Shown here in pieces: positions 22,453 to 46,665 of a DNA stretch of 64,000 nucleotides (position 1 is its first letter; every line of letters begins with the position of its first letter). The notes below the pieces were generated by a model. It was not told where the DNA came from and made no database searches. It saw nothing but the letters and a program-made list of their open reading frames with translations. This DNA is from Candidatus Halobonum tyrrellensis G22 (GTDB lineage: Archaea > Halobacteriota > Halobacteria > Halobacteriales > Haloferacaceae), in contig NZ_ASGZ01000004.1 of NCBI RefSeq assembly GCF_000495475.1, positions 1 to 64,000 of the forward strand. The letters run 5' to 3'. The translations under genes were made by a program, and so were the position numbers.

Positions 22453-23127
22453 TCAGGCGAGTTCGTCCGCGACGCCCGCGAGCGCGTCGACTTCGAGCGA
22501 CGGCTCGCCCCCGACACGCTCGAAGGGGTCGCCGCCGCGGTTCACCCACGCCGTCGCCATCCCTGCGGCGCTCGCGCCCGCCACGTCCCACGCGTTACCC
22601 GAGACGAGCCGACAGTCCCCGAGCGGGCGGTCCGCCCGCTCGGCGGCGGCGTCGTACACCGCGGGGTCCGGCTTGAACGTCGACGCCTCGTCGGCGCTGA
22701 CGATCCGGTCGAGGTGGTCGTCCAGCCCGGCGTTCGACGCGAGCGCCGACAGCATCTCCGGGTCGCCGTTCGACAGCACGGTCACCTCGTGGCCCGCCTC
22801 CGAGAGTCGGTCGAGCGTCTCGACGGCGTCCGGATACGGGTCGAGGCGGTCGTACGCGGCCAGCAGCGTCCCGCGCGTCGACTCGTCGGTCGCCACACCC
22901 CACTGGTCAAGCGCGTACGCGAGTGCGTCCGCGGTGACCTCGCCGAACGGCCGGTAGGCGTCCATCAGCGCGGCCTGATACGAGTACTGGAGCTGTTTGT
23001 CCCGCCACGTTCCGTCGAGTTTCCCGACGAGCGCCTCCGACGCGTCGAGTTCCCGGCGTAGCGCGTCCCGCACGCTGCTCGTGTCACACAGCGTCCCGTA
23101 CATGTCGAAACAGAGCGTCTCGGTCAC
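22453..23127 (-). CDS. HAD hydrolase, haloacid dehalogenase type II-like
   Basis: 224 residues from a GTG at 23127. Motif I CFDMYGTLCDTSSV carries the nucleophilic Asp, motif II is VTVLSNGDPEM, the Lys is in ASTFKPDPAVY and motif III is LVSGNAWDVAGASAAGM. The DxYGT form and the SNGxP motif point to the L-2-haloacid dehalogenase branch, although phosphatase activity cannot be excluded. It is divergent from the GNAT gene, with an 89-base gap containing a leaderless-type promoter for the latter. Confidence 0.87.
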   Translation of the reverse strand: MTETLCFDMYGTLCDTSSVRDALRRELDASEALVGKLDGTWRDKQLQYSYQAALMDAYRPFGEVTADALAYALDQWGVATDESTRGTLLAAYDRLDPYPDAVETLDRLSEAGHEVTVLSNGDPEMLSALASNAGLDDHLDRIVSADEASTFKPDPAVYDAAAERADRPLGDCRLVSGNAWDVAGASAAGMATAWVNRGGDPFERVGGEPSLEVDALAGVADELA

Positions 23128-38949: not shown

Positions 38950-39303
38950 TTACGCGTCGAGACGCTCGCGGACGTCGCTCGCGCGCTCGTCGTCGGTGAC
39001 GTACTTCGAGAGCATCCAGTCGATGCGGTCGAGGACCGTCCGGCGGCCCTCCTCGGTCAGCGCGTACTGGTTGGTCCGCTTGTCCAGTTCGCTCTTCTCG
39101 ACCAGTCCCATCTCGACCAGGTCGTCGAGGTTGGGGTAGAGCCGACCGTGGTTGACCTCGGCGTCGTAGTAGCTCTCCAGTTCGCGTTTGATCGCCAGCC
39201 CGTACATCGCCTCCTCCGAGAGGATGACGAGGATGTTCTGCTGGAACGCCGTCAGGTCGCGAGCCGCCCCCGCGCCGTCCGTTTTACTTTGTGCCTCTGA
39301 CAT
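38950..39303 (-). CDS. PadR family transcriptional regulator
   Basis: 117 residues. The winged-helix core LTAFQQNILVILSEEAMYGL, AIKRELESYYDAEVNHGRLY and PNLDDLVEMGLVEKSELDKR, with NQYALTEEGRR, is the PadR signature. A short C-terminal helix would dimerise it. A perfect 7-base inverted repeat sits between its TATA box and start codon, pointing to autorepression. The inducing signal is unknown. Confidence 0.93.
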   Translation of the reverse strand: MSEAQSKTDGAGAARDLTAFQQNILVILSEEAMYGLAIKRELESYYDAEVNHGRLYPNLDDLVEMGLVEKSELDKRTNQYALTEEGRRTVLDRIDWMLSKYVTDDERASDVRERLDA

Positions 39304-39310
39304 GGTATGT

Positions 39311-39333
39311 ATAGACGAATGTCATCCGTCTAT
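39311..39333. promoter_or_regulatory. inverted-repeat operator of the padR gene
   Basis: ATAGACG (39311-39317) and CGTCTAT (39327-39333) are perfect 7-base arms separated by 9 bases (16 bases centre to centre). The site begins 8 bases before the padR start codon and its distal arm overlaps the TATA box, ideal for blocking TBP or polymerase. Confidence 0.7.
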
Positions 39334-39337
39334 TTAA
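39331..39337 (-). promoter_or_regulatory. TATA box of padR
   Basis: Minus-strand TTAAATA centred about 31 bases before the ATG. It overlaps the operator arm and lies within a second inverted repeat, TTAAC-CCTT-GTTAA (39334-39347). Confidence 0.65.
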
Positions 39338-39549
39338 CCCTTGTTAACGGACCGCTCACGTTTCGTAGATAAAAGGTGTCGAACGAGCTATCGGAGCCGC
39401 GTTTCCGCCGGAACGGGACGTTCGCCGAGGCCCGGCCGCGTCGACGGGCGGTCGTCTACCCTCGGATAGCGTACGGTCTGCCCGATCATAAACCCACCGT
39501 CGGACGATGCCGAAAGGACTTTGCCCGGATTCGGGCAACTCACGGACGC

Positions 39550-40083
39550 ATGACGAATCTCTGGGAAGACTTGGAGACCGGGCCGGACGCTCCCGACGAG
39601 ATTTACGCGGTCGTGGAGTGTCTGAAGGGCGAGCGGAACAAGTACGAGTACGACAAGGACATCCCCGGCGTCGTCCTCGACCGGGTGCTCCACTCGAACG
39701 TCCACTACCCCTCCGACTACGGGTTCATGCCGCGGACCTACTACGACGACGGCGACCCGTTCGACGTGCTCGTTCTGGTGAAAGACCAGACGTTCCCGGG
39801 CTGTATCGTCGAGGCCCGCCCCGTCGCCATGATGAAGATGGACGACGACGGCGAACAGGACGACAAGGTGGTCGCGGTGCCCGTCGAGGACCCACGGTAC
39901 GACCACGTCCACGACGTCGGCGACCTCACCGACCAGACCAAAGCGGAGATCGAGGAGTTCTTCGAGACGTACAAGAACCTCGAGGAGGGCAAGGAGGTCG
40001 CCACCGAGGGCTGGGAGGACGCCCAGTCCGCCAAGGACGCGATCGAACACGCCCAACAGCTGTACGACGAGGAGTTCGCGTAG
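39550..40083 (+). CDS. ppa: inorganic pyrophosphatase, family I
   Basis: 177 residues, soluble Mg-dependent enzyme that hydrolyses PPi from biosynthetic reactions. Key motifs are EIYAVVECLKGERNKYEYDK (substrate-binding Glu, Lys and Arg), YPSDYGFMPRTYYDDGDPFD (the D-x3-D/D metal cluster) and DDKVVAVPVEDPRYDHVHDV. ATG 39550 gives the family-length N-terminus MTNLWEDLETGPDAPDEIYA. A TATA-like ATCATAAA near 39485-39492 predicts a leader of about 36 bases. Confidence 0.96.
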   Translation: MTNLWEDLETGPDAPDEIYAVVECLKGERNKYEYDKDIPGVVLDRVLHSNVHYPSDYGFMPRTYYDDGDPFDVLVLVKDQTFPGCIVEARPVAMMKMDDDGEQDDKVVAVPVEDPRYDHVHDVGDLTDQTKAEIEEFFETYKNLEEGKEVATEGWEDAQSAKDAIEHAQQLYDEEFA

Positions 40084-46137: not shown

Positions 46138-46665
46138 ATGCGCGAGTTCGCCGCGGACCCGCCGGTAGAGGAGCGCGTCGGCGACGCGCTCCGGTCGGCG
46201 GGCGGAACGGTCGCGGTCGCCGAGTCGTGTACCGGCGGGCTGGTCGGGTCGCTTCTCACCGACGTGCCGGGGTCGAGCGACTACTTCGACCGCTCGGTGG
46301 TGACCTACTCGTACGACGCGAAGCTGACGGAACTCGCGGTTCCCCGCGAGACGCTCGATACCGCGGGCGCGGTGTCGGAACCCGTCGCGCGGGCGATGGC
46401 GTCGGGCGTCCGCGACACCGCGGGGACGACGTGGGGCGTCGCGACCACCGGCGTCGCGGGACCCGACGGCGGCAGCGACGAGAAACCCGTCGGGACGGTG
46501 TACGTCGGCGTCGCCTACCGCGGCGAGTGGGGTAGCGGCGAGAGCCGGACGGACGTGAGTCGCTACGAGTTCGACGGGAGCAGAGTCGAGATCAAAGAGC
46601 GGATCGCCCGGCGGGCGCTGTCTGACCTGCGCGAGGCCGTCGCGTCGCGGACGGACCGCGGGTAA
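46138..46665 (+). CDS. pncC: CinA/PncC family nicotinamide-nucleotide amidohydrolase
   Basis: 175 residues, the stand-alone C-terminal CinA domain, which deamidates nicotinamide mononucleotide for NAD recycling. Motifs are VAVAESCTGGLVGSLLTDVP, FDRSVVTYSYDAKLTELAVP, SGVRDTAGTTWGVATTGVAG and KPVGTVYVGVAY. No competence-damage N-terminal domain. Start MREFAADPPVEER fits the family. Confidence 0.92.
   Translation: MREFAADPPVEERVGDALRSAGGTVAVAESCTGGLVGSLLTDVPGSSDYFDRSVVTYSYDAKLTELAVPRETLDTAGAVSEPVARAMASGVRDTAGTTWGVATTGVAGPDGGSDEKPVGTVYVGVAYRGEWGSGESRTDVSRYEFDGSRVEIKERIARRALSDLREAVASRTDRG

Follow-up and report, generated by a model that had tools for sequence, protein, structure and literature searches.

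The promoter of the rosR gene in the window (the whole stretch of 64,000 nucleotides from Candidatus Halobonum tyrrellensis G22 analysed here) probably carries its own operator, in which a TGACATT core would be read by RosR, with repression of its own gene as the outcome. As judged from the upstream sequences of the orthologues, the conserved unit is TATA-N6-TGACATT, and the centre of a 23-bp palindrome in this genome forms part of it. Self-control by RosR is proposed because the gene is a rosR orthologue, the conserved core is phased to the TATA box, the exact composite of box and core is confined to rosR-type starts in the genomes searched, and self-repression is reported for Halobacterium salinarum. 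An autoregulatory operator at this PadR-type gene had been suggested in a sequence-only reading with the palindrome as the site; its autoregulation is likely right on the strength of the orthology, the H. salinarum report and the rosR-specific element, but the palindrome did not hold up as the site.

The gene (positions 38950 to 39303, minus strand; start codon 39303–39301) encodes a 117-residue winged-helix protein of the PadR family (Pfam PadR, 3.1e-17), which by sequence comparison is assigned as the orthologue of the haloarchaeal stress regulator RosR. Matches to the PDB chains of H. salinarum RosR gave E values of 9.4e-44 to 6.5e-43, the similarity at 9.4e-44 covering residues 2–111 of 117. 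An oxidative-stress role of RosR is described for H. salinarum (PMC4287449 and PMC3443676). H. salinarum RosR (VNG0258H; 6ez1, 6f5c, 6faq, 6fdh, 6qfd, 6qh0, 6qil, 6qua) is of the same family and size, and both genes have a divergent ppa neighbour. In the window this neighbour, the inorganic pyrophosphatase gene (39550 to 40083, plus strand; Pfam Pyrophosphatase, 1.7e-55 in a search on 39553–40083), also supplied the control promoter. Of 140 loci, 136 retain the divergent rosR/ppa pair, a count that includes the window's own locus and duplicate genomes, as well as the H. salinarum-type locus L115; the loci lacking a divergent ppa are L077, L103, L109 and L112. At L103 the core is still present.

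Upstream sequences of the orthologues were anchored at the start codon. A first set contained 139 sequences (128 distinct), and a synteny-checked set contained 142 distinct rosR upstreams and, taken at these loci as well, 145 ppa upstreams; these counts refer to sequences and not to independent events, kinship having been reduced by removal of identical upstreams only. The TATA box TTAAATA (39331 to 39337, minus strand in the window) fits the pattern TTA[AT][AG]T[AG] in 133 of the 142 rosR upstreams. TGACATT lies at −16 to −10 in the rosR promoters of this set, and the corresponding core RTGACATT in the window (ATGACATT; 39318 to 39325, minus strand) is the probable operator core. TGWCA begins 13 bases after the start of the TATA box in 89 of the 142 upstreams, 14 bases after it in four and 10 in one; the remainder have the TATA box alone (39), the core alone (1) or neither (8). 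Within the 128 distinct upstreams of the first set, TGWCA is missing at −24 to −14 in 43. The arrangement of a TATA box with TGACATT at a constant spacing behind it is common to different haloarchaeal families. The columns from −22 to −8 carry 6.76 bits in the 142 rosR upstreams versus 1.85 bits in the 145 ppa upstreams. The ppa promoters in these 145 sequences show no such element and nothing beyond A-rich and T-rich blocks lying farther upstream; TGACATT is therefore not common to promoters in general in these genomes. In the window and the nearest genus the core stands at −21 instead of −16, that is, with five extra bases before the start codon. On the assumption that the start site is dictated by the TATA box, the transcripts of the relatives would be leaderless and those of this clade would have a leader of about five bases.

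Bacterial PadR repressors have operators at their own promoters with the consensus ATGT-N8-ACAT. They share with the present case the PadR-type winged helix and, as far as the palindrome of this genome goes, an inverted repeat beside the promoter; however, their consensus is not the conserved pattern here, where the promoter is archaeal and the site is phased to the TATA box.

The specificity of the composite was assessed across 384 genomes of the order. Exact TTAAATA-N5-RTGACATT (TTAAATANNNNNRTGACATT) occurs in 137 of them, at one place each, and when the rosR start (ATGTCAGAG) was additionally required 6–16 bases downstream, the number was again 137 of 384; no exact copy away from rosR-type starts was found in the 384 genomes. 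Of the remaining 247 genomes, some have small variants (TGACATC in G016) and some have lost the core. The nearest further matches in the window's own genome are one at two mismatches (L146) and three at three mismatches. L146 was rejected as a second composite, since it coincides with the start codon (ATGACAGTC) of a gene whose translation looks ParA-like. When one mismatch or fewer was permitted in 60 relatives, five of the 30 places listed lay away from rosR (L153, L159, L164, L169 and L175, one mismatch each); L153 was discarded as a copy of the composite, since it is a start codon (ATGACGTTC). The element was not found at seven rosR-like genes without ppa in the stretch (L179, L180, L182–L185 and L187). 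This speaks against self-control by RosR through the core, as do the 43 of 128 distinct upstreams that lack TGWCA.

The Halolamina-type loci L027, L042, L045, L095 and L113 have neither TATA box nor TGACATT before rosR; their upstreams share a G-rich stretch and CAGTGCCCCAC or CAGTGCCACA, a pattern that resembles a promoter replacement. In G017, which has two rosR-like genes (L179 and L180) and no adjacent ppa, a TATA-like box before each gene is followed by TATCAYC and not by TGACATT. The rosR-like paralogues of G048 (L182, L183 and L184) have a common upstream stretch of their own, CCAAGCAGTTA or CCAAACAGTTA, instead of a rosR promoter. In Halobacterium-like loci (L115–L118, L121–L125 and L128) the core changes stepwise (ATGACATT, ATGACTTT, ATGCCTTT, GGCCACTT) and the RosR protein stays close.

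According to PMC4287449, H. salinarum RosR has 189 binding loci near 252 genes and the consensus TCGnCGACGAGnTCGnCGAC, and leaves most of its sites under H2O2. In the same source rosR itself is a RosR-bound and RosR-repressed target with the printed site TTGTTGACGAGATCGTCGAG; that is, negative autoregulation is already reported for this orthologue, and PMC3443676 contains the speculation that RosR could regulate itself. RosR also acts in Haloferax volcanii, and its function differs among species (PMC13286277 and PMC12482152). A literature search of partial coverage found no haloarchaeal paper joining RosR with TGACA, from which absence from print is not claimed; the novelty of the TGACATT reading is modest and uncertain.

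The printed H. salinarum site was located in L115, the RosR of which is 100% identical to H. salinarum RosR over the 103 residues searched. TTGTTGACGAGATCGTCGAG falls inside the rosR coding sequence (L115 bases 1651–1670, start at 1483, opposite strand), about 170 bases past the start codon, whereas the site in the window lies in the promoter. The promoters differ as well, GGCCACTTC occupying in L115 the position that RTGACATT has here. This counts against RosR as the reader of the core: in H. salinarum, where binding was measured, the core is degenerate and RosR is closely similar. The published consensus TCGnCGACGAGnTCGnCGAC has 10 matches at two mismatches in the 64-kb window; the rosR promoter does not fit it, the closest sequence in the window's rosR–ppa intergenic region having seven mismatches.

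These data bear on a rival explanation, namely that rosR is controlled through TGACATT by a different conserved protein or a specialised TFB, with RosR itself not binding the element. The loss of the core in H. salinarum despite a closely similar RosR agrees with it, as do the different consensus reported there for RosR and the regulation of rosR by TfbB that is reported in PMC4287449. However, a general regulator should have further sites, and all 137 of the 137 composites stand at rosR-type starts; moreover, the published consensus, with its 10 places in the window, fits G+C-rich DNA widely. A reader other than RosR is accordingly considered rather unlikely, and recognition of the core by RosR is retained as the preferred reading.

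A second rival takes the entire palindrome as the operator, with arms that evolve fast together with the protein. The inverted repeat ATAGACG-N9-CGTCTAT is present exactly as first described, at 39311 to 39333 with its centre at 39322, and its symmetry is wider than that description, 10 of 11 pairs being complementary (gene strand ATAGACGGATGACATTCGTCTAT). It was correctly placed between the TATA box, which overlaps its outer end, and the rosR start, although the gap to the start codon is seven bases and not eight. In the 3.68-Mb genome there is one exact copy of the 23-mer. Sites with at least 10 of 11 pairs number 11 in the window versus a mean of 3.65 and a maximum of seven in 60 dinucleotide shuffles, so palindromy by itself is not special; the interest of the site is its position and its conserved centre. 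The other 10 of these sites are visibly richer in G+C than the rosR site; two G+C-rich palindromes of 23 bp, at 22620–22642 and 46170–46192, pair perfectly (11 of 11).

The use of the 23-mer as a motif for a regulon, also suggested from the sequence, failed: a genome scan at two mismatches or fewer, the threshold on which this verdict rests, gave two further matches, neither of them between a TATA box and a start codon. One (L002) is intergenic, 103–125 bases ahead of an oligopeptidase-like open reading frame, and the other (L003) lies within a long open reading frame. Upstream of the padR orthologues the arms of the repeat are not conserved, a finding that the sequence-only reading had itself named as contrary to its proposal. 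The right arm is missing in the nearest three genomes (L086, L199 and L200), which belong to the genus with the closest RosR (84–89% identical) and have CATCTCTTCC, CATCTCTCCT or CATCTCTACC where the window has CATTCGTCTAT. It is missing also in G212, which matches the window over all 20 bases of TTAAATAGACGGATGACATT and then continues with TCCACATGT. By inspection of the listed sequences containing the composite and the rosR start, CGTCTAT follows the core in the window only.

Dyad symmetry outside TGWCA was examined by permutation of the right half. In 31 thinned sequences 93 pairs were counted versus 88.9 expected (486 of 2000 permutations as high), which is not significant; in 72 unthinned sequences there was a weak excess (231 versus 214.3; 31 of 2000 as high) that may be explained by relatedness. 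Ranked by pairing fraction, a dyad centre on TGACA comes second among 56 centres (z 2.19), and partly symmetrical arms surround the same centre in L096 (9 of 11) and L069 (8 of 11). Both observations favour a palindromic operator, as do the 10 complementary pairs and the correct placement in the window. They are outweighed by the missing right arm in close relatives and in G212 and by the lack of significant symmetry in the thinned set, and an operator that comprises the whole palindrome is regarded as quite improbable. No dyad centre stands out strongly, and defined half-sites are therefore not claimed. As far as the aligned sequences indicate, the palindrome is built around the conserved core with outer arms that are not conserved and are peculiar to this genome; the extended form seen here would be a reinforcement of the site within this lineage or, alternatively, chance symmetry about a conserved centre.

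The second inverted repeat that had been described, TTAAC-CCTT-GTTAA, is present at 39334–39347 and has TTAA in common with the TATA box. A stretch GTT..A.AA is conserved at −40 to −33 in the rosR promoters (5.09 bits in columns −41 to −32), and its variant in the window, GTTAACAAG (39340 to 39348, minus strand), is the origin of this repeat. As an operator TTAAC-N4-GTTAA was rejected, since it is perfect in only 19 of the 128 distinct upstreams and the nearest genomes have TTGCCAAGCATTAA or TTGCCAACTATTAA instead of it. It appears from this comparison to consist mostly of the TATA box, with GTTAA as its edge, and the DNA immediately upstream.

A third rival would make TGACATT part of the core promoter or start site, with no regulator involved, and the palindrome a product of chance. 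It would suit the constant spacing from the TATA box and the surplus of comparable palindromes over the shuffles, but it is highly improbable: the element is absent from the ppa promoters at these loci, and a general element should recur, yet the 384 genomes contain no other exact copy.

With RosR as the reader of TGACATT, the proposed course of regulation would be as follows. A RosR dimer would bind the core between the TATA box and the transcription start, and bound RosR would block TBP/TFB or RNA polymerase. The leaderless or nearly leaderless mRNA of rosR itself would thereby be held down until an oxidant frees the promoter. A further proposal is put forward tentatively and with some doubt: the TATA-phased TGACATT may be a dedicated single-copy site for self-control, kept across haloarchaeal families and distinct from the regulon motif, such that the feedback is fixed and the network is rewired.

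In place of a genome-specific palindrome the analysis offers a short element open to mutation in model haloarchaea. It also places the printed H. salinarum rosR site within coding sequence. Should recognition of TGACATT by RosR prove to be limited to the rosR gene, the question of how the regulator preserves its feedback during rewiring of its targets could be tested directly.
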